Source: an uncultured Ruminococcus sp. (GTDB lineage: Bacteria; Bacillota; Clostridia; Oscillospirales; Ruminococcaceae). From it: a stretch of DNA of 38,808 nucleotides. The stretch lies in NCBI RefSeq assembly GCF_902762735.1, contig NZ_CACWPP010000022.1, positions 1 through 38,808 of the forward strand, read 5' to 3'. Shown piece by piece: positions 3,194 to 31,735 of the stretch (positions are counted from its first letter, which is position 1; every line of letters begins with the position of its first letter). The notes under the pieces are model-generated. The model saw only the letters and a list, made by a program, of their open reading frames with translations. It searched no databases and was not told where the DNA came from. Position numbers and translations under genes: made by a program.

Positions 3194-5821
3194 TTACTTC
3201 TTGTCCTTGATTGCAGCCTGAGCAGCAGCCAGTCTTGCGATCGGCACTCTGAAAGGCGAGCAAGAAACGTAATCCAGACCAATCTTGTGGCAGAACTCTA
3301 CGGATGTAGGATCGCCGCCATGCTCACCGCAGATACCGCAGTGGAGATTAGGATTAACAGGCTTGCCCAGCTTGATAGCCATTTCCATCAGCTTGCCAAC
3401 ACCGACCTGATCCAGCTTTGCGAAAGGATCGTTCTCGAAGATCTTCTTGTCGTAGTAAGCGCCCAGGAACTTGCCTGCGTCATCTCTGGAGAAGCCGTAG
3501 GTCATCTGAGTCAGGTCGTTAGTACCGAAGCAGAAGAAGTCAGCGTTTGCAGCGATCTCATCAGCAGTCAGAGCAGCTCTTGGGATCTCGATCATAGTAC
3601 CAACTTCATACTTCAGATCGGAACCAGCCTCAGCGATAACAGCGTCAGCAGTCTCAACTACTACTTTCTTAACGTACTTCAGCTCCTTAACGTCGCCAAC
3701 CAGAGGGATCATTATCTCAGGCTTAACGTTCCAGTCAGAGTGCTTCTTCTGAACGTTGATAGCAGCCTTGATAACAGCAGCAGTCTGCATCTTAGCGATC
3801 TCGGGATAAGTTACAGCCAGACGGCAGCCACGGTGACCCATCATTGGGTTGAACTCGTGCAGACCAGCGATCAGAGCCTTGATGTCCTCAACGGACTTGC
3901 CCTGAGCATCAGCCAGAGCCTTGATGTCAGCTTCCTCAGTAGGAACGAACTCGTGGAGAGGAGGATCCAGGAATCTGATAGTAACAGGGCAGCCTTCCAG
4001 AGCCTCATACAGAGCCTCAAAGTCAGCCTGCTGCATAGGCTCGATCTTAGCCAGAGCAGCTTCTCTCTCTTCAACGGTGTCAGCGCAGATCATCTCTCTG
4101 AATGCAGCTATTCTGTCAGCCTCGAAGAACATGTGCTCGGTACGGCACAGACCGATACCTTCAGCGCCCAGCTCTCTAGCCTTCTTAGCATCAGCAGGAG
4201 TATCAGCGTTAGTTCTTACCTTCAGAGTTCTGTACTTGTCAGCCCAAGCCATGATCCTGCCGAATTCGCCTGCGATCTGAGCGTCAACGGTAGGAATGAT
4301 ACCATCATAGATGTTACCTGTTGTACCGTCGATGGAGATGTAGTCGCCTTCAACGAAGGTCTTGCCGCCCAGCTCGAACTTCTTGTTAGCTTCGTCCATC
4401 TTGATGTCGCCGCAGCCCGATACGCAGCACTCGCCCATACCTCTAGCAACAACGGCAGCGTGAGAGGTCATACCGCCGCGAACAGTCAGGATACCCTGAG
4501 CAGCCTTCATGCCTGTGATGTCCTCAGGAGAAGTTTCCAGTCTTACCAGAACTACCTTCTCACCCTTTTCAGCCCACTCAACAGCGTCGTCAGCAGTGAA
4601 TACGATCTTACCGCAAGCAGCTCCGGGAGAAGCGCCCAGACCCTTGCCAACAGGCTCAGCAGCCTTCAGTGCCTTAGCGTCGAACTGAGGGTGCAGCAGA
4701 GTGTCGAGGTTTCTTGGGTCGATCATTGCAACTGCTTCCTGCTCGGTCTTCATGCCCTCATCAACGAGGTCGCAAGCGATCTTCAGAGCAGCCTGAGCAG
4801 TTCTCTTACCGTTTCTGGTCTGCAGCATGTAGAGCTTCTTGTTCTCAACAGTGAACTCCATATCCTGCATGTCGTGATAGTGGTTCTCCAGAGTCTGGCA
4901 AACTTCCTTGAACTGAGCGAAAGCCTCAGGGAAGGTCTCAGCCATCTGCTGGATAGGCATAGGAGTACGAACGCCTGCAACAACGTCCTCGCCCTGTGCA
5001 TTGGTCAGGAACTCGCCCATCAGCTTCTTCTCGCCGGTAGCGGGATCTCTTGTGAAGGCAACGCCTGTACCGCAGTCATCACCCATGTTGCCGAATGCCA
5101 TAGACTGTACGTTAACAGCAGTACCCCAGCTGAAAGGAATATCGTTGTCACGTCTGTAAACGTTAGCTCTGGGGTTATCCCAAGAACGGAATACAGCCTT
5201 GATAGCGCCCATCAGCTGCTCCTTAGGATCGTCAGGGAAGTCAACGCCGATCTTAGACTTGTATTCAGCCTTGAACTGACCAGCCAGTACCTTCAGGTCA
5301 TCAGCAGTCAGCTCAACGTCCTGAGTTACGCCCCTCTCTTCCTTCATCTTGTCGATCAGCTCTTCAAAGTACTTCTTGCCGACCTCCATAACAACGTCAG
5401 AATACATCTGGATAAATCTTCTGTAACAGTCCCAAGCCCATCTGGGGTTATTGGACTTCTCAGCGATGGTGTTAACAACAGTTTCGTTCAGACCCAGATT
5501 GAGGATAGTATCCATCATACCTGGCATCGAAGCTCTTGCGCCCGAACGAACGGAAACGAGCAGAGGATTTTCCTTGTCGCCGAACTTCTTGCCGGTGATA
5601 CCCTCCATCTTAACGATATACTCATTGATCTCCTTCTGGATCTCCTCAGAGATACCGCCGTCCTCATAATACTGTGTGCAAGCCTCAGTAGTGATAGTGA
5701 AGCCCTGGGGAACAGGAAGACCGATGTTGGTCATCTCAGCCAGGTTAGCGCCCTTACCGCCGAGCAGCTCTCTCATGTTGGCATTACCCTCAGAGAAGAG
5801 ATAGCAATACTTTGTTGCCAT
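3194..5821 (-). CDS. ppdK: Pyruvate, phosphate dikinase
   Basis: This 875-residue cytoplasmic enzyme interconverts pyruvate + ATP + phosphate and PEP + AMP + pyrophosphate, and is typical of anaerobes with PPi-linked glycolysis. The N-terminal nucleotide-binding domain begins with KYCYLFSEGNA and includes LLGGKGANLAEM. The swivelling phosphohistidine domain contains GGMTSHAAVVARG with His454. The C-terminal PEP/pyruvate TIM barrel ends with the CGICGEHGGDP motif, with Cys831 as the catalytic acid. Length and residue numbers match the well-studied clostridial enzyme (His455, Cys831). GGAGG lies 9 nt before the ATG. The gene is single, with its own promoter and terminator. A long antisense frame on the opposite strand is only a codon-bias shadow. 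Confidence 0.98.
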   Translation of the reverse strand: MATKYCYLFSEGNANMRELLGGKGANLAEMTNIGLPVPQGFTITTEACTQYYEDGGISEEIQKEINEYIVKMEGITGKKFGDKENPLLVSVRSGARASMPGMMDTILNLGLNETVVNTIAEKSNNPRWAWDCYRRFIQMYSDVVMEVGKKYFEELIDKMKEERGVTQDVELTADDLKVLAGQFKAEYKSKIGVDFPDDPKEQLMGAIKAVFRSWDNPRANVYRRDNDIPFSWGTAVNVQSMAFGNMGDDCGTGVAFTRDPATGEKKLMGEFLTNAQGEDVVAGVRTPMPIQQMAETFPEAFAQFKEVCQTLENHYHDMQDMEFTVENKKLYMLQTRNGKRTAQAALKIACDLVDEGMKTEQEAVAMIDPRNLDTLLHPQFDAKALKAAEPVGKGLGASPGAACGKIVFTADDAVEWAEKGEKVVLVRLETSPEDITGMKAAQGILTVRGGMTSHAAVVARGMGECCVSGCGDIKMDEANKKFELGGKTFVEGDYISIDGTTGNIYDGIIPTVDAQIAGEFGRIMAWADKYRTLKVRTNADTPADAKKARELGAEGIGLCRTEHMFFEADRIAAFREMICADTVEEREAALAKIEPMQQADFEALYEALEGCPVTIRFLDPPLHEFVPTEEADIKALADAQGKSVEDIKALIAGLHEFNPMMGHRGCRLAVTYPEIAKMQTAAVIKAAINVQKKHSDWNVKPEIMIPLVGDVKELKYVKKVVVETADAVIAEAGSDLKYEVGTMIEIPRAALTADEIAANADFFCFGTNDLTQMTYGFSRDDAGKFLGAYYDKKIFENDPFAKLDQVGVGKLMEMAIKLGKPVNPNLHCGICGEHGGDPTSVEFCHKIGLDYVSCSPFRVPIARLAAAQAAIKDKK

Positions 5822-8480: not shown

Positions 8481-9569
8481 TTATTTCCAGAGCTTGTCGC
8501 CTTTGCTTGAAAGATATGCTGTCAGTTCGGTCGCCATTTCGTACTGTTCGCTGAGTCTCGGGTGACCCGGTGTAGCCCTGCCGCTTCGCTTGAATGTGAA
8601 GTGGCTTACCCTCTCATCGGCGAGTTCATTTGCTATCTCGTCTATCGCCTTATCCCATTCGGGGTCATGGTTGAGGACTGTCAGCGTCAGCACGAAGTCT
8701 GCGCGGGGGTACTTTGCCATAAGGTCTTTTATGATGTCCTTGTAACGCTCTTTCCAGCGTGTGCGGAAAGCGGGGTCGTTTATATCGGGGTCGCCGTCAG
8801 CTTCGTTGTGCTGGTCGTTCTGTCCCACTGCGAAGATTACCACATCGGGTATGTACGCCGAGAAGTCCCAGTCGGTATAGCCCTTTTCGCCATCGGGGAA
8901 ATAGAACAGCTTGTTATAGGCAGTTTCCATGCCGATGAAGTTCGGGGCATGATACCAGCCTGTATTATCGAATATGGCGATACCTCCCTGTGCGGTATCG
9001 TTCAGCTGTGCGCCCAGATTTCTTGCGGTTATGGCGGCATAGCTGTGCCATGCGTTGTCGTATATGCCCTCAGTGTTTTCGGGGTCGCTGCTGCCCACGC
9101 AGTCCATAGCTTCAACCACTGCGCCCGCCGACACCGAGTCGCCGAAGCACTCTATCTTGCGTGTCGGGAGTTTCGGCGCGTCAAGCACCTCACCGCCCTC
9201 GTCAATGACAAAACCGAAGAATTTGAAGTAATGTGAAGCGTCCTGACGTTTGAAGAGTATTATCTCATGTTCGCCGTCTTCCAGACCCTCAGCCAGCGGG
9301 ACGATATACTCTTTCTCCCATTCATCGGCAGTGCCGAAGTCAGCCCTGCCCTCTTTGCCGTCTATCAGGAAGCCCAGCGACATCTTATTGAAAAAGCGCT
9401 TGTTGAACAAAGCCGCGCTCACGGAAGTTCCCGTGAAGCGCATGCGCACATTTGAGCCCGCCCACACGAACGCGGGGGCAGTCCTGTCCGAAAAGTCTAT
9501 CCTGCCCATGTATGACATCTTGTCATCGGCAGTTATCAGTTTTTTGCCTGCGGGTATTTTTATATCCAT
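8481..9569 (-). CDS. SGNH-type carbohydrate esterase, CE2-like, without signal peptide
   Basis: This 362-residue protein has the two-domain plan of family CE2 esterases. An N-terminal jelly-roll (about 1-125) is followed by an SGNH/GDSL hydrolase domain. The nucleophile Ser lies in FGDSVSAG (about residues 142-149), block III is VGQNDQ, and the catalytic His is in GHPRLSEQYEMA near the C-terminus. Known CE2 enzymes remove acetyl groups from xylo- or manno-oligosaccharides at O-6. This one has no export signal, so it probably acts in the cytoplasm on imported acetylated oligosaccharides. It is first in the operon, behind a strong promoter, with GGAGG before the ATG. The exact substrate cannot be read from sequence. 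Confidence 0.85.
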   Translation of the reverse strand: MDIKIPAGKKLITADDKMSYMGRIDFSDRTAPAFVWAGSNVRMRFTGTSVSAALFNKRFFNKMSLGFLIDGKEGRADFGTADEWEKEYIVPLAEGLEDGEHEIILFKRQDASHYFKFFGFVIDEGGEVLDAPKLPTRKIECFGDSVSAGAVVEAMDCVGSSDPENTEGIYDNAWHSYAAITARNLGAQLNDTAQGGIAIFDNTGWYHAPNFIGMETAYNKLFYFPDGEKGYTDWDFSAYIPDVVIFAVGQNDQHNEADGDPDINDPAFRTRWKERYKDIIKDLMAKYPRADFVLTLTVLNHDPEWDKAIDEIANELADERVSHFTFKRSGRATPGHPRLSEQYEMATELTAYLSSKGDKLWK

Positions 9570-9682: not shown

Positions 9683-9714
9683 AAAAAGGCTGACACCCGT
9701 GCGGGGCATCAGCC
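9683..9714 (-). terminator. Terminator of the polysaccharide operon
   Basis: Minus-strand stem GGCTGA...TCAGCC with an inner CCC/GGG pair and G-T wobbles, then TTTTTG, 13 bp after the stop codon of the last operon gene. Confidence 0.88.
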
Positions 9715-9726
9715 TGTGAACATTTC

Positions 9727-10887
9727 CTATTTCTTGCAGGAGATGATAATATCGCAGATAATATCCACCTGTTCTGCGGTGAGGTCTGCATAGAGGGGCA
9801 GTGTCAGCACTCTCCTGCTTATATCCAGCGCCACAGGAGTTTCAGCGGCATCGTACTTGCCTGCAAAGCACTCGAAAGTGTTGGTCAGCGGGTAGAAATA
9901 CTTTCTCGCGAAGATGTTGTGAACTGCCAGTTCGTCAAAGACTTCATCGCGGCCGCAGCCGAACTTTTCAGCATCAAATACAGCGGGCAGATAAGCGTAA
10001 TTGGGCTTGACATCTTTGCCCGTCTTGTTTAGTCTTACGCCCTCGATATTATCGAGTCTTTCGTGATAACGCTCGACAACTGCCCTGCGCTTTGCTATCT
10101 CTTCATCTACGTGGCGCAGGTTGCAAAGTCCCATAGCCGCGCAGAATTCGTTCATCTTGGCATTAGCGCCCACCGACTCGACTATTTCGGGACCGTGTAT
10201 GCCGAAGTTTTTCAGGTTGTATATCTTGTCGCCGAAAGCCTGATCCTTAAAGCACACCGCGCCGCCCTCAATTGTGTTGAACACCTTTGTTGCGTGGAAG
10301 CTGAAGCAGGAAACATCGCCGAAAGAGCCTATTCCCTGCCCCTTGTAGCTCTCGCCGAAAGTGTGTGCCGCATCGTATATGACTTTCAGACCGTACTTGT
10401 CAGCTATGCGCTGTATCTCTTCGATATTGCACACGTTGCCGTAAACATGCACAGGCACTATGGCGGAAGTCTTGTCGGTTATCAGCGACTCCAGCTTTGT
10501 CACATCTATGGTGAAGTCATCGGGGTCAATATCGCAGAAAACAGGTGTCAGCCCATTCCTGACGATTGCGTGGGTGGTGGAAGCGAACGTGAAAGGCGTG
10601 GTTATGACCTCACCTGTCAGCCCAAGTGCCTGCATGGTAAGTTCCAGCGCCATGTGACCGTTGGTCAGCAGGTCTATCTTCTCAACGCCCAGATAGCTTT
10701 TCAGTTCTTCCTGAAATTTTTTGTGCTTGGGACCCATGTTGGTCAGCCAGCGGGTGTCCCAGATGTCCTTTATCTCTTCGCAGTATTCCTCATAATCGGG
10801 CATTGATGAACGTGTCACCAGTATCTTGCCTGTCACGAATTTATCTATCATGCCCGTATAGTTCTTGTCATTTGAGTTCATTTGCAT
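9727..10887 (-). CDS. DegT/DnrJ/EryC1/StrS-family PLP aminotransferase
   Basis: This 386-residue enzyme belongs to the family that converts keto-sugar nucleotides into amino sugars (the VioA, PglE and ArnB group). Lys201 in SFHATKVFNTIEGG should form the Schiff base with PLP, and Asp172 in YDAAHTFGE should pair with the pyridine nitrogen. The substrate is probably a dTDP- or UDP-4-keto-6-deoxy sugar; a dTDP-4-keto intermediate is made by rfbB elsewhere in the window. It is the last gene of the polysaccharide operon and overlaps the upstream ATP-grasp gene by 20 nt. GGGAG lies 5 nt before the ATG at 10887; the ATG two codons later is also possible. An aminotransferase beside ATP-grasp ligases suggests the new amine may be acylated. 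That link is inference. Confidence 0.9.
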   Translation of the reverse strand: MQMNSNDKNYTGMIDKFVTGKILVTRSSMPDYEEYCEEIKDIWDTRWLTNMGPKHKKFQEELKSYLGVEKIDLLTNGHMALELTMQALGLTGEVITTPFTFASTTHAIVRNGLTPVFCDIDPDDFTIDVTKLESLITDKTSAIVPVHVYGNVCNIEEIQRIADKYGLKVIYDAAHTFGESYKGQGIGSFGDVSCFSFHATKVFNTIEGGAVCFKDQAFGDKIYNLKNFGIHGPEIVESVGANAKMNEFCAAMGLCNLRHVDEEIAKRRAVVERYHERLDNIEGVRLNKTGKDVKPNYAYLPAVFDAEKFGCGRDEVFDELAVHNIFARKYFYPLTNTFECFAGKYDAAETPVALDISRRVLTLPLYADLTAEQVDIICDIIISCKK

Positions 10888-12145
10888 CGTATCTCCCTAT
10901 CAGCATATTTTTACCGTTTTCGTCAAGGACTTTTACGGTGCTGTAAATTTTATCTATCGTGCGGATAAGCTCCTGCCTGTCGTCCGAGCAAAGGTAGATG
11001 CGCCCGAACACCTGCGAATAATCCGCAAGCCGTGTACAAACAGTACCCTCGCGCATTTTTTGTGAAACGTAGATGACGCATTTCTCGCGGCTTATCTCGT
11101 CCAGCCCGCTGATGCTTGTGACAGTGCCCTTTGTGGCGAGCAGTGTTATCGTAACGCCGTGTTTTGCAAGGCGCGGAACGTCTTTTTCATTGATAAGAGC
11201 GTCATCGCCCATCGTACCTGTCAGCGCGTGGCGTATCATCATCTGCACAACGTTCATGCCGTTGATGAAGTCTGAATAATGGAAGGAAAGCGAGCCTTCG
11301 AGCCTGAAACCGAGATCCACGCAGACGAAACTGCCGTTTTTCATCTTGCCCTGCATCAGCGCACAGCCGTTCTGCATGCCCAGTGAGCGGAAAACTTCTC
11401 TGAACTGTCTGTCCTGCTTTTCCATAAAGCCCTCAAGATATTTGGAGGGGTAGACATTCCCGACAGCCTGTTTTATCATGCCGCCGCCGAAGCCGAAATC
11501 TACCATTATCCTGTCAAGCGAGTTTGAAAGTGTTGCTGTGCCGTTGTGTATGGTATAGAAAAAGACAGGTTCATATCTCGGATCGTCGCCATCGAGGAAT
11601 TCCTCGATGATCGCTCTGCCGCTTACGGAACTATTGCAGGCGGCTTCGTATGCCCTGTTCAGTTCATCGCGGTCCTTGCAGACGGATACACCTCTGCTTC
11701 CCGCATTGTCAACGGGCTTGACTATCACGGGGAAAACAATATCTTCATCGTCGATGCTGTATGCGGCAGTTGCAGGTATGCCTGCATTTACGCATGCCTC
11801 GCGGAATTTATCCTTGCTGAATATCACTCCCAGATCGGCACCTTCTGTGTAGCAGTGAAAGCCCATTCTTTTGCAGAGCGCCGTCAGGCATTCGACACGC
11901 CTCTCGCTGTAACCTGCAAGGCAGCCGTCCACATTTCTGTCTCTGCATATCTTTTCCAGCGCGTCCATATCGGACCAGCTTATGTCAAAGGCTTCATCAG
12001 CCGCATACTTTGCGGGTGCAAGTGACCAGTCGGTGTGGTTATCGGTGACTATGGTGTACACGCCCAGCTTTTTTGCTTCGTTAACTATCTCTGTCTCGGT
12101 GGCAGTCGCGCCGAGTATCAGCAGTTTTTTACCTTTAAGCTCCAT
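10868..12145 (-). CDS. ATP-grasp ligase (carbamoyl-phosphate-synthase-like), second of two
   Basis: This 425-residue protein has an N-terminal Rossmann-like pre-ATP-grasp domain (KKLLILGATATETEIV at about 6-21). Its ATP-grasp core includes VFPVIVKPVDNAGSRGVSV, where Lys binds ATP and the Gly-rich loop covers the phosphates. Where the usual metal-binding motif has a P-R-x-G-G-N pattern it reads LGFRLEGSLSFHY, so the acidic ligands may be arranged differently. ATP-grasp enzymes of this type activate a carboxylate as an acyl phosphate and join it to an amine or thiol. In a polysaccharide operon, amidation of an amino sugar or attachment of an amino acid is plausible. It shares one base (TAATG) with the preceding gene and overlaps the following aminotransferase. 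Confidence 0.85.
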   Translation of the reverse strand: MELKGKKLLILGATATETEIVNEAKKLGVYTIVTDNHTDWSLAPAKYAADEAFDISWSDMDALEKICRDRNVDGCLAGYSERRVECLTALCKRMGFHCYTEGADLGVIFSKDKFREACVNAGIPATAAYSIDDEDIVFPVIVKPVDNAGSRGVSVCKDRDELNRAYEAACNSSVSGRAIIEEFLDGDDPRYEPVFFYTIHNGTATLSNSLDRIMVDFGFGGGMIKQAVGNVYPSKYLEGFMEKQDRQFREVFRSLGMQNGCALMQGKMKNGSFVCVDLGFRLEGSLSFHYSDFINGMNVVQMMIRHALTGTMGDDALINEKDVPRLAKHGVTITLLATKGTVTSISGLDEISREKCVIYVSQKMREGTVCTRLADYSQVFGRIYLCSDDRQELIRTIDKIYSTVKVLDENGKNMLIGRYDANELK

Positions 12146-13101
12146 TACAGAACTCCTTCTTCTTTAAGTTTTGTCAGTATATACCCCATATCTTCAATGT
12201 CATATCTCTGGTCAATGGGCAGGGGGACTATATTTTTCGCATAGTCGTATTCAAGGCTGTTTTCGTCACAGCATTCAAACACATCTCCCCAGAGTGTGGG
12301 CACGAATATCTTAGCCTCACACAGCGCCTTTTTGACCTCAGCGCCGTTTTCAAGGTACAGCGGGTACATGAAAGCCCCCTCAGGCACTGTCAGCGTCAGT
12401 TTATTTATGCCGCCCAGCCTGTCATGCAGGTATGTGAAATTCTCCGTCCTGCGGGCGATGATGCGCTCGTAATCAAAAGACCTCAGCAGGTCTTTTGTCA
12501 GCTTTGACATGCGCTTTATCGGTTCACCCGCGAAAAACTTATTGTTATCGGCAGACTCTTTATAAAACTCGCCCGCATTTCTTTCATATCTGCCCATTAT
12601 GTAATGTATGCGCTCGAAGGATTCATCTGCGGGCAGTTCAACGTCAAGCCTTTTGTCGGTATAGAGAAATGCACCGTCGGGCACACCGAAAAACTTGCGG
12701 CAGGTATATATCGTGTCAACATTTTTGACAGGGGGGAGAAAATAGCTTTGTGCGTTGTCAAATATCACCCGCCCGAACTTCTGTTTGTAAGCGGCGGCTT
12801 CATCATTTGTCAGCTGACCGTAGTAGTTTACGATATACAGCCATTCATCGTCGGCAAGTGCAAGATCACCGACGGGTCTGAAAGCCGAGTCGATGTGGTA
12901 GAATGTTGTATCGACCCCGTATCTCGCGCAGACATCCTTCACCGAACTGCACAGAAAATACGGCAGTTTTATCCGCTTTATGCCGCAGGCTTCGATAAGG
13001 TAAGCAAGGCAGTTCCTGCCGCAGTTCAGCCTTAACGCGCCCTCGTGGAAAAGCGTGCCGTGATAGCTCTCAAATTCGATATATCCGCCTATCTCTTTCA
13101 T
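12145..13101 (-). CDS. Short PLP-fold (DegT-like) protein
   Basis: This 318-residue protein looks like a reduced DegT-family member (usual length about 370-400). GRNCLAYLIEACGIKRIKLP aligns with the substrate-loop and first PLP region. Asp115 in VIFDNAQ matches the PLP-nitrogen Asp. Lys136 in CRKFFGVPDGAFLY matches the Schiff-base Lys, with 'G-x-PDGA' in place of 'GDGG'. The active-site residues therefore seem present, although the N-terminal arm and parts of the C-terminal domain are short. It starts immediately after the stop codon of the first ATP-grasp gene (TAA-ATG) and shares a base with the second, so the three are made together. It could be an aminotransferase, a dehydratase or a different PLP enzyme. 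Confidence 0.72.
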   Translation of the reverse strand: MKEIGGYIEFESYHGTLFHEGALRLNCGRNCLAYLIEACGIKRIKLPYFLCSSVKDVCARYGVDTTFYHIDSAFRPVGDLALADDEWLYIVNYYGQLTNDEAAAYKQKFGRVIFDNAQSYFLPPVKNVDTIYTCRKFFGVPDGAFLYTDKRLDVELPADESFERIHYIMGRYERNAGEFYKESADNNKFFAGEPIKRMSKLTKDLLRSFDYERIIARRTENFTYLHDRLGGINKLTLTVPEGAFMYPLYLENGAEVKKALCEAKIFVPTLWGDVFECCDENSLEYDYAKNIVPLPIDQRYDIEDMGYILTKLKEEGVL

Positions 13102-14301
13102 TTACTTCAAAACCACCCTGATGTGCTTTTTCATGCTGTTCATTATTTCGTACATTTCCTGTTCGCTGTCAAAACTCAGGAATATTATGCCCATCGCCTT
13201 AGCCGCGTTGTCGAAATGTTCTATCCTGTCGCCCTGCTTGTTGTAGATGCATTTTTTGAAGATATGCTTTTCAAGCGTTTTGGAAAACTCGATGTCCTCG
13301 AATATGCCGTCGCTGTCGGAATGCAGTACATAAGTAGCGCAGTAAGGGAGCTTCAGCTCGGGCTTTATCACCAGCGGTTCGCCCATAGCGCATTTTACCG
13401 ACATTTCGACAATATCAATGCCAAAGATACAGCTGAGCTGAATGGGTATCATGTTGCCGCCTGCTCTCGGTCCCACGTCTATCGGGTACACTTTGCCGCT
13501 TTTGTCTATGACCAGTTCAACATTCATAGCGCCGCTGACTATGCCCAGCTTAGTGACCATATCCTGCAATACAGCCTTTACCTTTTCGAGGTCATCAGCG
13601 TCCAGCAGTACAGGGTACATTTTGCCTGAGGGTACAAGGGGAAAATCCGCATTCTCGCGAAAACAGTTCATCAGTCCCCAGACAGCCACTTTTCCGTCAT
13701 AAACGAAAATATCGCCGCCGATGAGATAGGGGTGTTTCTTTTCTATAAAGCGTTCAGCGATGATCTCACCGCACCTTGAAAATGAAAATGCCAGGTCGAT
13801 AGCCTGTTCGATGCCATCGGCGCTTTGCAGTATGGTAACGCCCTTGCTGCCCGATGAATCGACGGGCTTCATAATTATGGGGTAATCAAATGCCGCACTG
13901 TCGGCAAGCGCCGCCGCCTTGTCGGTATATCCCTTTGCTGTGGGACATTCAAAGCCGTTTTCTGCCAGAAAAGTCCTGAACTTATCCTTATTGCACAGAA
14001 TATCCACAGCCGTGTAAGGATTTGTCGGCAGACCCAGCGTTTGTGCGACATAAGCCGCCGTAGGTGCGGCGGGGTCGGATGCATAAGCTATGACACCGTC
14101 GATATTTTCAGCTTTTGCGACCTCAAGCACAGCCTCTTTGTCGGTGGTGCTTACAAGGTAGAATTTGTCGCAGACATACTGTCCCGGATTATCGGGGAGG
14201 TAATCGCACACCACCGTGTAATAGCCCAGACGCTTTGCCGTTTCTATTGCAATTATCTGCTGTGCCGAACCGCCCAGCATCAGAATTTTTTTCAATCTCA
14301 T
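13102..14301 (-). CDS. ATP-grasp ligase, first of two
   Basis: This 399-residue protein has the pre-ATP-grasp nucleotide-fold start KKILMLGGSAQQIIAIETAK. The ATP-grasp core has DYPIIMKPVDSSGSKGVTI (about residues 140-158) and a canonical metal-ligand motif IDVGPRAGGNMIP (about 268-280). It is a clearer, probably fully active relative of the other ATP-grasp protein of this operon. The start overlaps the wzx stop by 4 nt (ATGA) and its stop abuts the next ATG. Family knowledge predicts carboxylate-amine ligation with ATP hydrolysed to ADP. The acceptor is unknown, but placement right after the flippase gene in a glycan operon suggests modification of a sugar or its carrier-bound repeat unit. 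Confidence 0.87.
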   Translation of the reverse strand: MRLKKILMLGGSAQQIIAIETAKRLGYYTVVCDYLPDNPGQYVCDKFYLVSTTDKEAVLEVAKAENIDGVIAYASDPAAPTAAYVAQTLGLPTNPYTAVDILCNKDKFRTFLAENGFECPTAKGYTDKAAALADSAAFDYPIIMKPVDSSGSKGVTILQSADGIEQAIDLAFSFSRCGEIIAERFIEKKHPYLIGGDIFVYDGKVAVWGLMNCFRENADFPLVPSGKMYPVLLDADDLEKVKAVLQDMVTKLGIVSGAMNVELVIDKSGKVYPIDVGPRAGGNMIPIQLSCIFGIDIVEMSVKCAMGEPLVIKPELKLPYCATYVLHSDSDGIFEDIEFSKTLEKHIFKKCIYNKQGDRIEHFDNAAKAMGIIFLSFDSEQEMYEIMNSMKKHIRVVLK

Positions 14302-15776
14302 CTTCCTCTTTTCAGAACCTTTTTTCCCATGTTCAGGATATATTCAAAGCATTCCAGCTTGAAAAGTTTCGCCAGACCCGCATATACCGCCACGCCCAGC
14401 GGAAGCTGTATCAGCAGTGTCTGCACATCGCTCAGTTTCAGGAAATTTATCGAATACACGACTGCGCCCATTATAACAGCTATGCCCAGCGACGGCAGTA
14501 TATCCATCATCTGTTCTTTATAGCCGTAACTCAGCAGTTTCCTGTTGGGCGATGCGTTTACGAAGCATGAAAGCAGTGTGGTAACACACTGACCCAGCAC
14601 TATCGCCAGCGGCGTGTTGAAATAGAACACTGTTATCAGCAGTATTATCAGTCCGTAGGTTTTTTTGATAAGTTCCAGTATAAGGAAAATGCCGCTCCTG
14701 CCCTGCGCATTCAGCGCCTGAAGATTTGCCGTATGTATGGGCCAGAATGCGTACACGAAGCAGTAAGCCTGCAAATACGGCACGCAGGGCATCCACTTGT
14801 CGGTCAGCACCAGATGCACCATTGGCGATGCTATAACTGCCAGTCCCATACATATCGGGAATATCAGGAAAGAACTGGTAACTATCGAACGCCTCATCAT
14901 GCTTTTGACCTTTGCGTTGTCGCCGTTGTGCTTTGAGAGCGCAGGCAGCATGACGCTTTGTATAGCGCCGTTTACATTGTTTATGATTATATCGGGGAAC
15001 TGTTTGCCTCTGTTATAATAGCCCAGCATTCCCGTATTGTATTTTTTGCCGATGACCAGGCTTTGCAGTTCACGGAAGATGGTATCTATCAGTGCCGATG
15101 TCATAAGTTTCCAGCCGAACCCGAAAAGCAGTCTTACTCTTTTCCATTCAAGCACCCGCTTGGGTCTCCACTTGACTATCAGCATCAGCAGTATGCATAT
15201 CGCCACGCGGCTTGAAAGCTGCTGACCTACCAGCGCCCACACGCCCAAGCCGTTAAGCGCCATGATGATGCCCACCGTACCTGAGATGATAACTGCGCCG
15301 ATGGTACATAACATCAGTTCCTTAAAGCGCATCTCTCTTGCGACTTTTGCATTCTGTATCGAGTTGAAAGCACCCGGTATCAGCACCAGTGCCAGCACCC
15401 TCAGTATGGGTGTCAGAGGCGGAGTGTTATAGAATGCCGCGATGAAAGGGGCGGCGAAAAACAGTACTATGTACAGCACCACCGATATGAAAAGGCTCAC
15501 ATAGAATATCGACGAATAGTCGTTCTCGGTAACGTCCTTGCGCTGTATCAGCGCGGTGTTGAGACCACTCTGCACGAAAACCTGCGATATGCTGATAAAT
15601 ATGGTCAGCAGTGTCAGCATGCCGTAGTCAGTAGGGTCAAGCAGACGCGCCAGCACCAGCTGCACCACGAAAGCTATGCCCTGGTATCCTGCACGTTCAA
15701 GAAACTTGAACGCCAGTGACTTTATAACTACCGAATTTTCGGTCTGTGTATTTGTATTCAAATCAACACTCCTCAC
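14298..15776 (-). CDS. wzx: Wzx-type polysaccharide flippase
   Basis: This 492-residue integral membrane protein of the MOP superfamily (polysaccharide transporter group) has 12-14 predicted hydrophobic helices. The N-terminal FLERAGYQGIAFVVQLVLAR and LLDPTDYGMLTLLTIF are hallmark segments of WzxC/RfbX-like flippases. These move the undecaprenyl-diphosphate-linked repeat unit across the cytoplasmic membrane. An internal HTANLQALNAQGRS block matches the conserved mid-protein region of this family. It is followed by the two ATP-grasp genes and preceded by the Wzy polymerase gene. The symbol is functional, not a claim of close orthology. Confidence 0.92.
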   Translation of the reverse strand: MRSVDLNTNTQTENSVVIKSLAFKFLERAGYQGIAFVVQLVLARLLDPTDYGMLTLLTIFISISQVFVQSGLNTALIQRKDVTENDYSSIFYVSLFISVVLYIVLFFAAPFIAAFYNTPPLTPILRVLALVLIPGAFNSIQNAKVAREMRFKELMLCTIGAVIISGTVGIIMALNGLGVWALVGQQLSSRVAICILLMLIVKWRPKRVLEWKRVRLLFGFGWKLMTSALIDTIFRELQSLVIGKKYNTGMLGYYNRGKQFPDIIINNVNGAIQSVMLPALSKHNGDNAKVKSMMRRSIVTSSFLIFPICMGLAVIASPMVHLVLTDKWMPCVPYLQAYCFVYAFWPIHTANLQALNAQGRSGIFLILELIKKTYGLIILLITVFYFNTPLAIVLGQCVTTLLSCFVNASPNRKLLSYGYKEQMMDILPSLGIAVIMGAVVYSINFLKLSDVQTLLIQLPLGVAVYAGLAKLFKLECFEYILNMGKKVLKRGR

Positions 15777-15816: not shown

Positions 15817-16974
15817 TTAAAACCTGAATTTAAAGTAGTTTGATGCAGACCAGCCCGAGACCATTACCCACAAGTACCAGTATATGCCCATAAAGCTGAC
15901 GATGACGGCATTGGCAGCCGTTCTTTCAGCGAATGATCTGCGCGTGAATACCTTCTGTACGCGGGGCACCAGAAGTATCAGGAAGAAGTCGCAGTACATC
16001 GAGATCCTTCCGCCGTAGACCGTCCTGAAAGCGAACAGCACGTAGGTGTAGAAAATAAGACCGATAACAGTCAGTATCTTAACGTTCTCATCGACTTTTT
16101 TGTTGACCCTGCTAAAGCCCAGTATCGGCAGCACCACCAACAGCACCCTGAATATCCAGTCCATAAAAACGTGTGCATTGAAGCCGACGATACGCAGGTA
16201 AACATCAGCATCAAGGTCAAACACGGCATAGATGTTTCGCGTGTATTTTTCAGGCAGGAAGGAATTCTCTATCAGGAAAGTACTGAGACCTTCCAAATTC
16301 ATTATTACCAGGAAGAATACCGTAGCCATGATGATCTTTGAGGTAGTATCCGTCTTGTTTTTAACGAAGCTAGACAGCAGTATGAACAAAAGACCAAATA
16401 CAGCCGAAAAATGGAAAGAGATAGCTATGACAAAGCATATTGCGGCTTTGATCAGCTTTTTCTCTTTTATAAAACAGTAACACAGCACTATAAATGCCGC
16501 TGAAACGCTCTGTTTCATTATATTGAACGAGTTGTTGTAGAACACGAAAAGGTATGTACACATACCAAGCCACATGGGGAAGCGTTTTCGGTTCTTATAC
16601 AGCGCGTAATATACGGGTCCTATTACCATCAGCTGTGAAGCAAACAGGAAATAACCCGTATCATTGAATAATCGTGATGTGATGTATGCCAGTATAACGT
16701 AACCGACAGGTTCTTTTGACAGTTCCTGCATCTGCGTGAATGAGGTCGACATTTCGGCGTAATTGAAAGTACGCACCGCGTATTGCAGCACGTCCTTGCC
16801 GACGGTGTCATCACGCACGCCTGCCAGTATCGACGGTATAAGTACCGCTATCAGTGACAGCACGACAGCTTCGCGGTCACTGTGTAACTTAAATTTCTTT
16901 TCTGCACAGTAGGTAAAAAAGCATGAAAGCAGAAAGACAAACAGGTATAATAATGTGCTTTCTCCGATACTCAT
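15817..16974 (-). CDS. EpsG/Wzy-type polysaccharide polymerase
   Basis: This is a 385-residue, highly hydrophobic protein with about 10 membrane segments. The EpsG-family signature region RDDTVGKDVLQYA (about residues 55-67), with a charged loop after the second helix, is present, as is the later mid-membrane NNSFNIMKQSVSAAF segment. Such proteins polymerise lipid-linked repeat units on the outer face of the membrane. The start is the ATG at 16974, where AGGAGAG lies 6 nt upstream; the 23-residue longer frame upstream lacks a ribosome site. It sits between glycosyltransferases and the flippase, as is usual in Wzx/Wzy clusters. The intercistronic region before it is 189 bp and strongly structured. 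Confidence 0.88.
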   Translation of the reverse strand: MSIGESTLLYLFVFLLSCFFTYCAEKKFKLHSDREAVVLSLIAVLIPSILAGVRDDTVGKDVLQYAVRTFNYAEMSTSFTQMQELSKEPVGYVILAYITSRLFNDTGYFLFASQLMVIGPVYYALYKNRKRFPMWLGMCTYLFVFYNNSFNIMKQSVSAAFIVLCYCFIKEKKLIKAAICFVIAISFHFSAVFGLLFILLSSFVKNKTDTTSKIIMATVFFLVIMNLEGLSTFLIENSFLPEKYTRNIYAVFDLDADVYLRIVGFNAHVFMDWIFRVLLVVLPILGFSRVNKKVDENVKILTVIGLIFYTYVLFAFRTVYGGRISMYCDFFLILLVPRVQKVFTRRSFAERTAANAVIVSFMGIYWYLWVMVSGWSASNYFKFRF

Positions 16975-17002
16975 TAAAACTCTCCTATTATTTATATATG
17001 AC

Positions 17003-17159
17003 CTGCTGTCTGTATAGCTGACAGCAGAGATTGAAATTTTCATTTTTGCCGACCGTCATGCAGATCGGCATCATACACCCGCAGACGTGTGCTTCCGGGG
17101 TGATACTTTTGACCTGACTTTATTTATGCCCGTCCCTCATGGCGATGTGCGGGCTTTTT
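17003..17159. other. Hairpin-rich intercistronic region before the Wzy gene
   Basis: Four stems lie in the 189 bp between two operon genes: 17003-17027 (CTGCTGTC/GACAGCAG), 17048-17069 (GCCGACC/GATCGGC), 17076-17102 (CACCC/GGGTG) and 17128-17154 (GCCCG/CGGGC). On the plus strand the last is followed by TTTTT (17155-17159), so it could stop antisense transcription. On the operon (minus) strand none has a T-run. A leader or processing structure for the wzy part of the operon is possible. Confidence 0.5.
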
Positions 17160-17163
17160 CTAT

Positions 17164-18126
17164 TCATTTCCTTTTCTTAAACTTCATTATAAAAGGCAGC
17201 ATATCCTTGACCACGTACTTTACCCTCTCATACATGATAAGTTCATTGTATACCCCTGTTGCCTTCATAGCTTTCAGGTCGCCAAGATGCTGATAGTATA
17301 TAAGTTCCTTACGTTTTATCTGGTGTTCAATATCGCTGTGATACTGACCCTTTGTAAATTTATCGAACTCTCTCAGCAGGCTTGAATGCCTGTCTAGGAA
17401 ATTCTTTTTCAGCCTTTCGGCAGATGTTTTTATCGAGCCTGATGCCGAATTCGGGTTATTTGTGCGGTAAGCGCTCATTACCTCATTGAAATAGTGCGCC
17501 TTGCCGTCATAGGTAGTCACCAGCCGCACCACCAGATCCATAGAGGTCGAAAATTCGAGAAGTCTCCGCATTTTCTCCGTCCTGCCGACGGTAGATGCAG
17601 TCGGCGTGAAATCCAGCTTTATCAGCTCGGGCACTGTTATATCCGCACCCGCGGGATCGTTCATCGCTTTGTTCAGCGCCTTGTCGTTCCACATTTTGCG
17701 CGGGTAGAAAAACTTTATGAAATTATCATCTGTATCCACTACTTTTGCGTTGTGGAAACACATATTGCATTCGGGGTGTGTTCTCAGGTGATCCACCTGT
17801 TTTTGGAGTTTATTTTCATCACACCAGTAGTCATCGCCCTCACATATGGCGAAATACTCGGTCTTTATCGCGGGTATCACGTACTTCTGCACTATATTTA
17901 TGCCTTTGCTGTACTGATTTTCCTGCTGATATATGGTCTGTATCTTATCGGGATATTTTTTTTCAAACTCCTCCACGACAGCTTTTGAGCCGTCAGTCGA
18001 GCAGTCCTCATGGACAAGCACTGTAAACTCAAAGTCAGTTTTTTGTGTGCAGATACTTTCAAGGCATTTTCTCAGCCATTTTTCATGGTTATAGCTCAGC
18101 ACACAAGCAGTCAGCAAGGCAGCCAT
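17164..18126 (-). CDS. Family 2 glycosyltransferase (GT-A fold)
   Basis: This 320-residue cytoplasmic glycosyltransferase starts with LLTACVLSYNHEKWLRKCLE, the GT2 nucleotide-binding strand. HEDCSTDGS (about 40-48) and CEGDDYWCDENKL (about 95-107) supply the DxD-like metal site (E-G-D-D). The C-terminal basic helix region (MKFKKRK end) may contact the membrane. The sugar donor cannot be named. It starts 40 bp downstream of small element A (18166-18329), which separates it from the previous glycosyltransferase gene. Confidence 0.9.
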   Translation of the reverse strand: MAALLTACVLSYNHEKWLRKCLESICTQKTDFEFTVLVHEDCSTDGSKAVVEEFEKKYPDKIQTIYQQENQYSKGINIVQKYVIPAIKTEYFAICEGDDYWCDENKLQKQVDHLRTHPECNMCFHNAKVVDTDDNFIKFFYPRKMWNDKALNKAMNDPAGADITVPELIKLDFTPTASTVGRTEKMRRLLEFSTSMDLVVRLVTTYDGKAHYFNEVMSAYRTNNPNSASGSIKTSAERLKKNFLDRHSSLLREFDKFTKGQYHSDIEHQIKRKELIYYQHLGDLKAMKATGVYNELIMYERVKYVVKDMLPFIMKFKKRK

Positions 18127-18165
18127 TATGTTTCACCCCATTTTATCCATATTATAATTTTATAA

Positions 18166-18329
18166 TGTGATTATCCCGCTGATACACCAAAATAAATGAT
18201 GTTATATCGGGATTTGAATACAGTTGGCGGTTATCTTTCCACCGCCTGCGGAGGGGGAAAGATAACATCAACTCAGTTTTTCCTCATTGATAAAGGTATT
18301 TTGCAGTGGTGTGCCAAAGGGATAGTCAT
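18166..18329. mobile_element. MITE-like element A, complete, 9-bp target duplication
   Basis: The 164-bp element has imperfect terminal inverted repeats (left TTATCCCGCTGATACACC, right GGTGTGCCAAAGGGATA) and a central hairpin TTATCTTTCC...GGGGGAAAGATAA that is partly decayed. It is flanked by ATTTTATAA at 18157-18165 and 18330-18338. The right copy contains the stop codon (18333-18335) of the minus-strand glycosyltransferase. It shares ends and centre with elements at 25468, 25639 and 38610. It has no coding capacity, so it would be moved by a transposase elsewhere. Confidence 0.85.
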
Positions 18330-18332
18330 ATT

Positions 18333-19151
18333 TTATAATTTATATCCGTCAGCCACGCCTTTACACATGCTTTTCAGCTTATTGAATCTGTCTTTTTCGT
18401 AAAGCAGTGTCTGTATCATTCGCTTGATTATCCTCACATCAGCCTTAATGCCCAGTTTATACTTGCGCTTGAGGTAAATGCTGTTGCGCACCCAGTAATA
18501 CTTGCGCAGAGGCGAGTGATTGTATATTATTATGTCTTTGCCGAAAAATCTCCTTGTGGTGCTTTTGCCGACCTCATGGAGAAATCCCGTGTAATTCATT
18601 CGCAGTATCTTATACCCGCCGCGCACCAGTGCGAAGCAGATGTCATAATCCACCATATCTATAAACAGCTTTTCGTCGAAGCCGCCGACGGCTTTGATAC
18701 AGCTTATCCTGTTGAGTGAACCCGAAGTTATGCAGAGATCCACCTTTTCATAGTCGCGTGTCACGCCTGAGGAGACTTTAACGTTCCTGTCCTCAAAGTT
18801 CGATGTTATCACAGCAACATCGGGCTTTACGCGCTTTGCAAGGCTGTCATATCTTTCCATCAGGTCGGGTCTGCAAACCGTATCCTGATCCAGTGTGAGC
18901 ACCCATTCAGCGCCCAGTTCTTCAGCCTTGCCGATGATCTGGCTGAGTGCTTTTGCTATGCCGCAGTTTTTCGCATTTCTCACGTAAGTGATATTATCAT
19001 ATCCCGACATCAGCGCTTCAATATCGGCTTTGTTTTTTGAGCCGTTGTCTATCAGTATCAGGTCTTTTACCTGCGGGCTGATGGCAGAGATATTCTCTTT
19101 CAGCCTTTTTATATCAGGTTCATACAGCACTATCCCTGCGGCGTAACCCAT
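18333..19151 (-). CDS. Family 2 glycosyltransferase, rhamnosyltransferase-like
   Basis: This 272-residue GT2 enzyme begins GYAAGIVLYEPDIKRLKENI. It carries IDNGSKNK (about 33-40) and the diagnostic TLDQDTVC (about 85-92) found in the RfbN/RhaN-like rhamnosyltransferases, followed by a conserved ITSGSLNR and MVDYDICFAL block. A dTDP-rhamnose pathway is encoded in the same window at 30267-33654, which supports rhamnose as donor. The stop codon and last residue lie inside the target duplication of element A, so the protein is unchanged by that insertion. Specificity remains inferred. Confidence 0.88.
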   Translation of the reverse strand: MGYAAGIVLYEPDIKRLKENISAISPQVKDLILIDNGSKNKADIEALMSGYDNITYVRNAKNCGIAKALSQIIGKAEELGAEWVLTLDQDTVCRPDLMERYDSLAKRVKPDVAVITSNFEDRNVKVSSGVTRDYEKVDLCITSGSLNRISCIKAVGGFDEKLFIDMVDYDICFALVRGGYKILRMNYTGFLHEVGKSTTRRFFGKDIIIYNHSPLRKYYWVRNSIYLKRKYKLGIKADVRIIKRMIQTLLYEKDRFNKLKSMCKGVADGYKL

Positions 19152-19167
19152 AAATCAAACCACCCTG

Positions 19168-20331
19168 TTATTTTTTGTATTCAGCCAGAAAAATATCATA
19201 GAACGCTTCGCGCTTCTTTATCAGCTTTTCTCTGCTGAACTCACCTGACTTCAGAAAGTTTCTCTTAGCCAGCCTTTTCAGATCGACTTTCATCATACGG
19301 CAGACCGCTTTTACCACCTCATCGGTACTGCCCTTTCTGAACAGGCAGACTTTCGGTATAAGTTCGGGAATGCCCGCGATGTTTGTGCCTATGACGGGAC
19401 AGCCCCTGCTCATCGCCTCTATCACTGCGCGGGGCAGACCTTCCTGCTTGCTGGGCTGGACGTAAATATCCAGCGAGTCATAATATTCGGGCATTTTGTC
19501 TGCTGACAGGTTGCCCACGAACTTTACCCTGTCAGAAACTCCCAGCTCTTTTGCCAGGTCACGCAGGAAATAGTCGTGCTTTGTGCCGTTATAGCCGCCT
19601 GCCAGACGGTATTCGACATCATAGCCCATCTCAGTCAGCGGTCTTATCGCCCTGATGACATACTCCTGTCCTTTATATCTTGTATCCAGTGCGGCAGCAG
19701 TGCCAAGCACCAGCTTTTTGTGTGCATCGAAGCCTTCCAGCGCGGCAAGGCGCTTATCCAGTGTAGCTTTTGCGGGTCTGTCGATAACAACGTTTGAACA
19801 GCTCACAGTTACGCCTTTTGTGGGATAGCGGCGCTGTAAAAATTTGCCTGTCACGTAATACACGTACTTTGCCCCTGCGATTATACTGCGGGTCTTATAG
19901 TACATATAGGGCGCAACAGCCTTGCCCAGCAGACCGTGATTCCAGTAGCTGTCCCATGAACAGCCCACACTTTCGACGATATAGGGCTTATTGTACTTCT
20001 TTATATATTTTACTGCCAGCTGAGCGATAGAGCTTTGAGTCCTCAGCACGAAATAGTCATTTTCCCTGACGCATTTCTCGACTATCTTCTCAGCTTTCGG
20101 CTTGTTTACCAGTATAGTTTTCGGGCTTTTGAAGTTAGGCACACTTATGACCTTTATCTGCGGCGGCACAAGTGTGAACGTTTTGCCCTCAACGGGTTTT
20201 GTCCTTATAAGAAAGGTTATCTCATCAGCCAGATAGGAATATCTCTCATAAAGCTCATGGTAAGCGAACTCATAATAATTGCCGTCTTTATCATAAAAAA
20301 GCGGTCCGTCGTGAATAAAAACCAGTTTCAT
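19168..20331 (-). CDS. Family 4 glycosyltransferase
   Basis: This 387-residue GT-B retaining glycosyltransferase begins KLVFIHDGPLFYDKDGNYYE in the acceptor domain. The donor domain has VLGTAAALDTRYKGQEYVI (about 207-225) and the family signature QPSKQEGLPRAVIEAMSRGC (about 305-324), where the E-x7-E pair binds the nucleotide sugar. It lies in the middle of the operon, 16 bp from the previous and 13 bp from the next gene. The donor and linkage are unknown. Confidence 0.92.
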   Translation of the reverse strand: MKLVFIHDGPLFYDKDGNYYEFAYHELYERYSYLADEITFLIRTKPVEGKTFTLVPPQIKVISVPNFKSPKTILVNKPKAEKIVEKCVRENDYFVLRTQSSIAQLAVKYIKKYNKPYIVESVGCSWDSYWNHGLLGKAVAPYMYYKTRSIIAGAKYVYYVTGKFLQRRYPTKGVTVSCSNVVIDRPAKATLDKRLAALEGFDAHKKLVLGTAAALDTRYKGQEYVIRAIRPLTEMGYDVEYRLAGGYNGTKHDYFLRDLAKELGVSDRVKFVGNLSADKMPEYYDSLDIYVQPSKQEGLPRAVIEAMSRGCPVIGTNIAGIPELIPKVCLFRKGSTDEVVKAVCRMMKVDLKRLAKRNFLKSGEFSREKLIKKREAFYDIFLAEYKK

Positions 20332-20344
20332 CTGTACTAACTTC

Positions 20345-22621: not shown

Positions 22622-22653
22622 ACAGTTCCTCCTGATATGCAATTTATTACACA

Positions 22654-22689
22654 TAAAAAACGGTGCAAAATCACAGCGGACCTGCACCG
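22654..22689 (-). terminator. Intrinsic terminator inside the polysaccharide operon
   Basis: Minus strand CGGTGCA (22683-22689), a 15-nt loop, TGCACCG (22661-22667), then TTTTTTA. It lies 15 bp after the stop codon of the first operon gene, before eleven further co-directional genes. Confidence 0.88.
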
Positions 22690-22703
22690 GTTCTGATCTT
22701 GAT

Positions 22704-23633: not shown

Positions 23634-23662
23634 ATTATAGCACACTTAAACGATAAAGTCAA
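23634..23662 (-). promoter_or_regulatory. Main promoter of the polysaccharide operon
   Basis: Minus strand TTGACT (23657-23662), 17-nt spacer, TATAAT (23634-23639) preceded by TGTGC. Nearly consensus. The leader to the first start codon is about 195 nt. Confidence 0.88.
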
Positions 23663-28201: not shown

Positions 28202-28218
28202 TTTAAAAGCCTCCATTT

Positions 28219-28237
28219 CGTTAAACATTGTTTAACG
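28219..28237. promoter_or_regulatory. Perfect 19-bp palindrome next to the ribosome site
   Basis: CGTTAAACATTGTTTAACG reads as two 9-bp arms around one central base. It ends 5 bp upstream of the GGAGG of the 27059 gene. It could be an operator or an RNA hairpin that hides the ribosome site. Confidence 0.6.
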
Positions 28238-29626: not shown

Positions 29627-29805
29627 TGAATAGACCTCCATTTAAAATTTTACCTTTACTTCCGTTCTGCTCTCATTCAGGACGGACAAATTTTCGATGT
29701 TAAAGCCGCTCAAACCGATCCGAAGCCCTGCACGCTGAACTGATATGCAGATCAGAAACTTCATTTCAGACTTATACTGTTCGGTTTAAACTTTTAACTG
29801 TCCTT

Positions 29806-30140: not shown

Positions 30141-30266
30141 GTTGTTGATATAATTTTGTGCGCTGATACTTGTGCCTGCTGACAGCCGCAGAGCTGATGA
30201 TGAAATACGGTGTATCTGTGGGAGGCGCGCACTGTATCGCGGAAAAAATTGAACAGGAGAGACAAT

Positions 30267-31154: not shown

Positions 31155-31170
31155 GGGGAATTGTGGAAAA

Positions 31171-31722: not shown

Positions 31723-31735
31723 GGAGAAAAAGAAC

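Follow-up and report, generated by a model that had tools for sequence, protein, structure and literature searches.

A gene set with two ATP-grasp ligases, a DegT aminotransferase and a short PLP-type protein at the end of a Ruminococcus polysaccharide operon: a candidate two-module system for amino-sugar N-acylation

The four-gene set

Here we describe a stretch of 38,808 nucleotides from an uncultured Ruminococcus sp. (contig NZ_CACWPP010000022.1; the window denotes this whole stretch) and, in it, four genes at the end of a polysaccharide operon: two ATP-grasp ligase genes, A1 and A2, a gene for a short protein of the pyridoxal-phosphate (PLP) type, P1, and a DegT aminotransferase gene, D. 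Their order, families and conserved catalytic residues, a fold model of P1, the replacement of modules between loci and the exchange of ligase alleles are presented as observations, while the substrates, the reaction of P1 and modification before export enter as parts of a proposed mechanism. The four reading frames are intact and lie on the minus strand directly after the gene of a Wzx-type flippase:

13102-14301, minus strand: A1, ATP-grasp ligase, 399 amino acids, class I allele (Pfam)
12145-13101, minus strand: P1, short PLP-type protein, 318 amino acids, shortened sugar-aminotransferase fold (predicted structure, profile)
10868-12145, minus strand: A2, ATP-grasp ligase with an L-amino acid ligase C-terminal domain (PF18603), 425 amino acids (Pfam)
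9727-10887, minus strand: D, DegT aminotransferase, 386 amino acids (Pfam PF01041, nearest NCBIfam models)

A sequence-only reading had placed four genes behind the Wzx gene, joined by overlaps of 0-20 nt at the end of a polysaccharide operon, and its coordinates and junctions were confirmed. Wzx and A1 overlap by 4 nt, A1 and P1 adjoin with a gap of 0 (TAA-ATG), P1 and A2 overlap by 1 nt (TAATG), and A2 and D by 20 nt. Purine-rich, ribosome-binding-like stretches stand ahead of A1, A2 and D, and translation of A1-P1-A2-D as one block is a fair inference.

Neighbourhoods were compared in the 80 best P1 loci (L numbers) of at least 505 relatives from a scan of named genomes; these loci are mainly from gut and rumen Clostridia, together with a few metagenome bins labelled otherwise. 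Gene labels in them come from profiles made from clusters, with one member per cluster searched against family models, and A1 was counted from 500 bits upward.

Families of the ligases and of D

A1 and A2 both belong to the ATP-grasp superfamily, as Pfam ATP-grasp models match above cut-off and the ATP and metal residues are conserved. Their profiles can be aligned over almost the entire length, which argues that they are old paralogues. K105, K145, E183 and R279 of A1 are invariant in 58 of 58 rows (the window's A1 and 57 of 65 A1 matches), and so are K111 and R281 of A2 in 38 of 38 (the window's A2 and 37 of 39 matches). For the L-amino acid ligase domain LAL_C2 (PF18603, cut-off 29.4 bits), A2 reaches 31.3 bits and A1 16.9. 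Among the PDB sequence matches of A1 with a named ligase function, the nearest is the L-amino acid ligase BL00235 (3vot, 2e-20), outscored only by 4dim, which is named a phosphoribosylglycinamide synthetase. The similarity to L-amino acid ligases (BL00235, 3vot; 4wd3) covers most of A1 and part of A2, and A2 passes LAL_C2; in contrast to these enzymes, A1 and A2 are two diverged copies, linked to polysaccharide and sugar-aminotransferase genes. A1 and A2 are best taken as putative ATP-dependent amide ligases that would put variable acyl or aminoacyl groups, from presumptive acids, on amino sugars before export. An ATP-grasp domain that puts an acid on an amino sugar is found in Neisseria PglB2 (glyceramido-bacillosamine), where it is fused to a phosphoglycosyl transferase; by this general description, A1 and A2 would be alike in ATP-grasp action on an amino sugar and differ in the fusion.

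D matches PF01041 with 333 bits against a cut-off of 19.8, and its PLP lysine (K201) and aspartate (D172) are present in every one of 47 aligned sequences, made up of the window's D plus 46 of the 72 D matches from the loci, some of the 72 being fragments. The closest family models, those of the 4-amino-4,6-dideoxyhexose-type enzymes DesI, PseC and WecE, all score below cut-off. The best of all is TIGR04427, the equivalog model for dTDP-4-dehydro-6-deoxyglucose aminotransferase (dTDP, deoxythymidine diphosphate), with 310 bits against a cut-off of 650; as the best model stays under its cut-off, the sugar and the amino position suggested for D are provisional. RmlA or RmlB lies within 8.5 kb of P1 in 30 of the 61 loci that have D there, and one or the other adjoins D in several genomes without P1.

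P1, a shortened aminotransferase fold

P1 lies outside PF01041: at E 0.01 it matches no model of Pfam or NCBIfam, nor did a sequence search of the PDB return a match at E 1. The AlphaFold model, based on 89 sequences, has a mean pLDDT (predicted local distance difference test) of 95.8, and a Foldseek comparison with the PDB gave 820 matches at E 0.001, the 50 listed among them belonging to sugar aminotransferases and close kin, with TM (template modelling) scores of 0.58-0.68. The P1 profile aligns with that of D at E 2.8e-10, such that K136 and D115 coincide with the PLP lysine and the aspartate, and all 89 aligned rows keep K136, D115 and R135 unchanged. This alignment includes the distant rows L014, L015, L017, L018 and L020, which are outside the P1 tree, while L019, L021, L022 and L023 are in neither. 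The sequence-only reading had called P1 DegT-like, a label that stands at the level of fold and profile and fails at that of family models. Like the DegT/DnrJ/EryC1/StrS enzymes (DesI, PseC, WbpE, ArnB, DesV), to which D belongs, P1 has this fold with the PLP lysine and the aspartate; it differs from them in lacking a family-model match, in its own motifs (CRKFFGVxDG and DQRY) and in length, with 318 amino acids against 348-442 residues in the listed sugar-aminotransferase structures. That P1 is a dead protein is ruled out by the invariance of K136, D115 and R135 together with a frame that is open in all 80 loci, at 310-324 amino acids.

C-3 aminotransferase activity was considered for P1 and is kept as a hint only. 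The first four PDB matches of the P1 profile are 7n63, QdtB (3frk), 8e77 and 8e75 (E 0.0018-0.0084), which we take to act at C-3, and in the alignment P1 mostly reads YGQ and DxxQ at the places of YG and DAAH in D; histidine is typical of C-4 aminotransferases and glutamine of C-3 enzymes. The Foldseek list, however, mixes C-3 and C-4 enzymes, and blastp found no homologue of the 3,4-ketoisomerase FdtA in the 80 P1 loci, so that P1 has a weak resemblance to C-3 aminotransferases without their partner.

Some further relatives of P1 were seen along the way. One, at 44% identity, is encoded at 3532-4464 of MT838042.1, a 5.8-kb record titled Bacteriophage sp. that is probably bacterial DNA. Distant P1-like genes (28-30% identity) occur in L017, L020 and L021, in loci resembling those for nonulosonic acids; the neighbours in L017 match NeuB and the 2-epimerase of UDP-GlcNAc (uridine diphosphate N-acetylglucosamine), and the label of L020 and L021 is a reading of the sequence alone. 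An epimerase-family gene (cluster EpiC21) adjoins P1 in L034, L047, L068, L101 and L162 and is one gene off in L058.

Distribution and two separable modules

The nearest named relatives of the set are in Ruminococcus species, with P1 70-74% identical. Counting the genome itself, 7 of 247 family genomes and 9 of 398 phylum genomes have P1, in several cases only a distant one. A1, P1, A2 and D are all found within 8.5 kb of P1, the distance used throughout, in 27 of the 80 loci and in 21 of the 55 with long flanks. Rare co-occurrence, which the sequence-only reading had named as a refutation, is accordingly not what the P1 loci have, though just 7 of the 247 family genomes have P1 at all. The exact order of the four genes recurs in 10 of 80 loci, and L060 would make an eleventh: its A2, overlooked by the neighbourhood script, was read from the open frame of that locus.

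Directly upstream of P1 stands A1 in 55 of 80 loci, the median gap being 8 nt (at most 20 nt in 44 of the 55), and WbqC (PF08889) in 8. Around P1, 63 loci have A1 only, 9 WbqC only, one both and 7 neither (p 4.5e-7). Parsimony on the 85-row P1 tree requires 8 switches of the A1/WbqC label, 2 of them forced by well-supported branches; labels were set by hand for the window, L012, L013, L016 and L162, and the A1 class for L028, L030, L044 and L060.

D is present in 61 of the 80 loci, A2 in 38, a GNAT gene in 17, a hexapeptide enzyme in 13 and Wzx in 46, and 45 of the 61 D loci also have A2, GNAT, a hexapeptide enzyme or a second A1-like gene. Loci without A2 often have GNAT (the member searched is PseH-like, 77 bits, cut-off 93) or a hexapeptide enzyme (the member searched matches NeuD/PglB/VioB, 129 bits, cut-off 161), and A2 and GNAT occur together in just 3 of 80 (Fisher p 0.006). 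Among the 247 family genomes (G numbers), D was found in 19 and A2 above 370 bits in 8, six of them with D. The five family genomes with P1 at 43% identity or more, our own included, all have D, four of them with A1 and the fifth with WbqC. In G108 and G126, D and A2 share one contig that carries Wzx directly before A2, and P1 is absent. By this pattern of co-occurrence, A2-D and A1-P1 can be separated: the set behaves as two modules, P1 with A1 or WbqC, and D with A2, GNAT or a hexapeptide acyltransferase.

More distantly, an A1 relative (L137) adjoins FdtA and a DegT gene, and on a Bacteroides finegoldii plasmid annotated DegT, ATP-grasp and ATP-grasp genes are consecutive. Separately, a 32-kb Brachyspira plasmid (NZ_CP046929.1, L165) has an ATP-grasp gene of the A1 family (39% identity) beside one for a radical SAM/SPASM protein, and downstream lie two genes annotated as ATP-grasp fold amidoligases.

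WbqC and the Proteus locus

WbqC occurs in 14 of 398 genomes of the phylum, and the literature searched gave no described function for PF08889. In the 15 WbqC loci that were read, Pfam confirmed a neighbouring DegT in 4 and ATP-grasp in 6, two of the latter with the L-amino acid ligase C-terminal domain. The WbqC model, from 26 sequences, has a pLDDT of 95.1; against the PDB it has no match at E 0.001, and the top one, which alone stands out, is BshC (4wbd; E 0.0077, probability 0.87, TM 0.41, root-mean-square deviation (rmsd) 17.9). BshC, the bacillithiol synthase, couples cysteine to an amino sugar. The predicted fold of WbqC is nearest to that of BshC, through a weak structural match, and in sequence the two do not match, the WbqC profile giving 14 chance-like PDB matches up to E 1 (the best, at 0.015, a kinesin light chain) and no BshC. 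WbqC takes the place of A1 beside P1 and its model is nearest to BshC, which hints that WbqC, and with it the A1 that it replaces, may join an amino acid to an amino sugar.

A P1 homologue (42% identity) lies downstream of a CpxA-type gene in Proteus mirabilis H63, in what looks from its genes like an O-antigen locus. The locus holds D, a glycosyltransferase, WbqC, P1, an epimerase-family gene and an FnlA-like gene (just below cut-off), and further two UDP-FucNAc-type genes, a nucleotide-sugar dehydrogenase and a flippase-family gene. The order D, glycosyltransferase, WbqC, P1 is the same in G157, a genome of the window's family. Distant blastn searches with the Proteus WbqC-P1 stretch gave no Escherichia coli relatives. 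According to the available part of PMC5560731, the O-antigen clusters of Proteus are situated between cpxA and secB, and for most of the genus the O-antigen structures are known, so the roles of P1, WbqC and D can be tested directly in Proteus. A Proteus mirabilis record (NZ_OL790811.1, L162), chromosome-sized at 4.08 Mb and filed as a plasmid, has an O-antigen-type locus with D, WbqC, P1 and an epimerase-family gene.

Exchange of ligase alleles

Compared pairwise among the window and its eight closest Ruminococcus loci, D is 84-97% identical, P1 69-94% and Wzx 70-98%. A1 comes as two alleles, 69-82% and 84-99% identical within and 48-54% between, and A2 as a tight set (84-95%) with outliers at 56-72%. 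Between the A1 alleles, the N-domain (residues 1-125) is kept at 75-88% and residues 126-399 fall to 18-48%. Clustering the catalytic part of A1 over the 58 aligned rows at 45% linkage gives three classes, of 20, 13 and 25 rows, and along the P1 tree the class switches 23 times.

A pair of Ruminococcus albus operons was compared base by base from Wzx to D. In 200-base windows, strains AR67 and KH2T6 have 86-100% DNA identity through Wzx, A1, P1 and D, against 54-72% over the core of A2 and 80% at its edges, which the windows blur. Over this stretch the two strains hence differ chiefly in A2, the putative N-acylation gene, and the special feature is that a ligase alone is exchanged in one near-identical operon pair.

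Acid and transport genes carried with the modules

Near A2 lie PrpD-type genes, in some loci together with an aldo-keto reductase and a phosphonopyruvate decarboxylase (one member above cut-off), an ornithine-cyclodeaminase-family (OCD) gene with an amino-acid permease, and also a 2-hydroxyacid dehydrogenase, a glutamate symporter, which in L056 stands between P1 and A2, and a sodium/solute symporter. The permease is with A2 in 6 of 7 loci, PrpD in 6 of 7 (once without it, in L082) and OCD in 3 of 3 (p 0.049, 0.049 and 0.10). Near the hexapeptide (NeuD-like) enzyme there are instead MaoC, one member of which matches mesaconyl-CoA hydratase (CoA, coenzyme A), a CitE-type lyase and a carboxyl transferase: of the 5 loci that have MaoC, all 5 contain the hexapeptide enzyme (p 5e-5) and none contains A2, and of the 7 that have CitE, 5 contain the hexapeptide enzyme and 1 contains A2. 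The counts are small and the loci related. Such sorting of acid genes by enzyme type is as expected if A2 uses free acids and the acyltransferase CoA esters. In five loci a class I aminotransferase (one of five family-searched) lies directly upstream of A1.

Operon context

The operon that ends in A1-P1-A2-D and its surroundings comprise the following:

23634-23662, minus strand: promoter-like site upstream of the operon, 11/12 (consensus match alone)
22704-23432, minus strand: initiating sugar-phosphate transferase (Bac_transf), the operon's first gene
21482-22729, minus strand: polysaccharide pyruvyl transferase
17164-21439, minus strand: four glycosyltransferases, two GT2 and two group 1
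15817-17043, minus strand: EpsG-family protein, candidate polymerase
14298-15776, minus strand: Wzx-type flippase, 4-nt overlap with A1
9687-9715, minus strand: terminator-like hairpin directly after D, 12 pairs and a T tail
30210-33654, plus strand: RmlA, RmlC, RmlB and RmlD (RmlB above NCBIfam cut-off, the others by Pfam)

For one of the two GT2 genes the closest model is a rhamnosyltransferase, below cut-off. Right after the operon's hairpin, a 12/12 sigma-70-like site (9652-9623) precedes the next gene, which encodes a CE2-type carbohydrate esterase (8481-9569). Promoter sites come from consensus scans that found 33 promoter-like sites in the window against 22.9 in shuffles, so single ones prove little. 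An Rfam search of the whole window gave no match. Cellulosome parts are also encoded near the polysaccharide locus: a cohesin-bearing protein (28499-29641), beside a 389-amino-acid open reading frame (27059-28228) that has no Pfam match at E 0.0001, and a dockerin-bearing GH43 protein with ricin-type lectin repeats (35442-38225).

Proposed mechanism and alternatives

We propose, at somewhat better than even confidence, that the set forms a two-module system for amino-sugar N-acylation, placed last in a Wzx-dependent polysaccharide operon, with ligases that are exchanged between strains. RmlABCD in the window would supply dTDP-4-keto-6-deoxyglucose and dTDP-rhamnose. D would transaminate a 4-keto-6-deoxy nucleotide sugar to a 4-amino-4,6-dideoxyhexose, and A2 would use ATP to activate a free acid, carboxylic or amino, and join it as an amide to the amino group made by D. 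P1 and A1 would form a second, partly independent module, most likely making and acylating another amino group. The variable group would be set by the ligases, not by the aminotransferases, and swapped between strains as alleles. An amino sugar that is amidated, perhaps twice, as the sequence-only reading had suggested, agrees with the split into two modules, with the sugar N-acyltransferase-like enzymes that stand in for A2, with the acid and amino-acid genes beside some A2 genes and with RmlABCD in the window, the chemistry itself remaining putative.

A wider version appears possible, though doubtful. Gut and rumen Clostridia would widely use a combinatorial two-position glycan code, in which P1 founds a new family of minimal sugar aminotransferases, each amino group is given an amino or organic acid of its own by an exchangeable ATP-grasp ligase that keeps its N-domain and swaps its catalytic part, and WbqC, a BshC-like fold unrelated to A1, fills the role of A1 as a second amino acid:amino sugar ligase.

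Several observations weigh against the two-module proposal. The listed structures exceed P1 by 30-124 residues and deviate from it by an rmsd of 6.7-11, so that another role is possible for P1, blastp found no FdtA in the 80 loci, and the BshC match of WbqC is weak. The loci were picked by P1 similarity and are related, and the p-values, several near 0.05, are uncorrected for kinship or number of tests. Exceptions to the pairings exist: L076 has both A1 and WbqC; L036, L062, L067, L073, L087, L097 and L099 have neither, some being short records; 7 loci hold a lower-scoring A1-like gene, that of L038 beside WbqC; A2 occurs with GNAT in L037, L052 and L071 and with a hexapeptide enzyme in L055, L092 and L102. 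Among the family genomes, G246 and G005 carry A2 (above 370 bits) without D at the limit used, and G234 (538 bits) and G079 (438 bits) carry A1 without a P1 match. Finally, EpsG is as variable as the ligases in the close loci (50-91%), which suggests that general locus shuffling explains part of the pattern, and in 19 four-gene loci the pairwise identities of different genes correlate in rank at no more than -0.10 to 0.26, which points to exchange being general in these loci, as all gene pairs are weakly correlated.

Alternatively, only one amino sugar is made, by D, while P1 makes or alters an amino acid, A1, as an L-amino acid ligase of the dipeptide type, joins two amino acids and A2 attaches the product to the sugar. 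The closeness of A1 to BL00235 and the divergence of P1 from sugar aminotransferases are compatible with this, as is the tie of P1 to its immediate partner: it lacks A2 in 42 of 80 loci and both A1 and WbqC in just 7. However, the listed matches of the P1 model are sugar aminotransferases and kin, A1 stays below the LAL_C2 cut-off, and P1-A1 also stands beside GNAT or hexapeptide acyltransferases that replace A2, where a dipeptide is not expected. We therefore consider this route unlikely, about one chance among several.

It is more doubtful still that A1 and A2 are swapped like any polysaccharide gene, with the pairings a side effect of locus shuffling and the ligases at work in some other process. 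The low rank correlations and the wide variation of EpsG agree with such shuffling. The direct position of A1 before P1 in 55 of 80 loci at a median gap of 8 nt, the near-exclusivity of A1 and WbqC, the match of acid genes to enzyme type and the limitation of exchange to A2 between the two near-identical R. albus operons speak against it and leave it improbable.

That the ATP-grasp enzymes amidate the carboxyl group of a uronic acid with amino acids, as in Acinetobacter K17, is highly improbable: such amides occur in polysaccharides (according to the available parts of PMC3210612 and PMC9676051) and the genome has one nucleotide-sugar dehydrogenase above cut-off, yet this gene is on another contig than the window, and the ligases keep company with aminotransferases and are replaced in other loci by N-acyltransferase-like enzymes.

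Comparison to known systems and implications

Variable N-acyl groups on an amino sugar are a known principle, and it is the ATP-grasp class and the extra PLP-type family that differ here. In Flavobacterium psychrophilum, according to the available portion of PMC6519341, the R-group at the 4-amino position of Qui2NAc4N varies, PglE/PglF act with PglD-like WfpG/H/I and acid genes, and strains differing only in R-group genes have antigenic differences in lipopolysaccharide. As far as this portion allows a comparison, the likeness lies in an aminotransferase combined with amino-sugar N-acylation, the latter proposed for the Ruminococcus set, in acid genes within the locus and in known or putative acylation genes that vary between strains. 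The systems differ in that the PglD-like acyltransferase there is predicted to use an acyl carrier protein donor, whereas the Ruminococcus locus has two ATP-grasp ligases and P1. The sequence-only reading had named the block its best candidate for an undescribed glycan-modification system; the gene set is not described in the open-licence literature searched (titles and abstract starts), while the principle is familiar from F. psychrophilum, within the part of PMC6519341 available.

In conclusion, if the two-module proposal is true, P1, which matches no family model, and WbqC would each gain a substrate class. Gut Clostridia would vary their surface sugars via the swap of one ligase gene, thereby altering the cell exterior, and glycan decorations would become readable from genomes.

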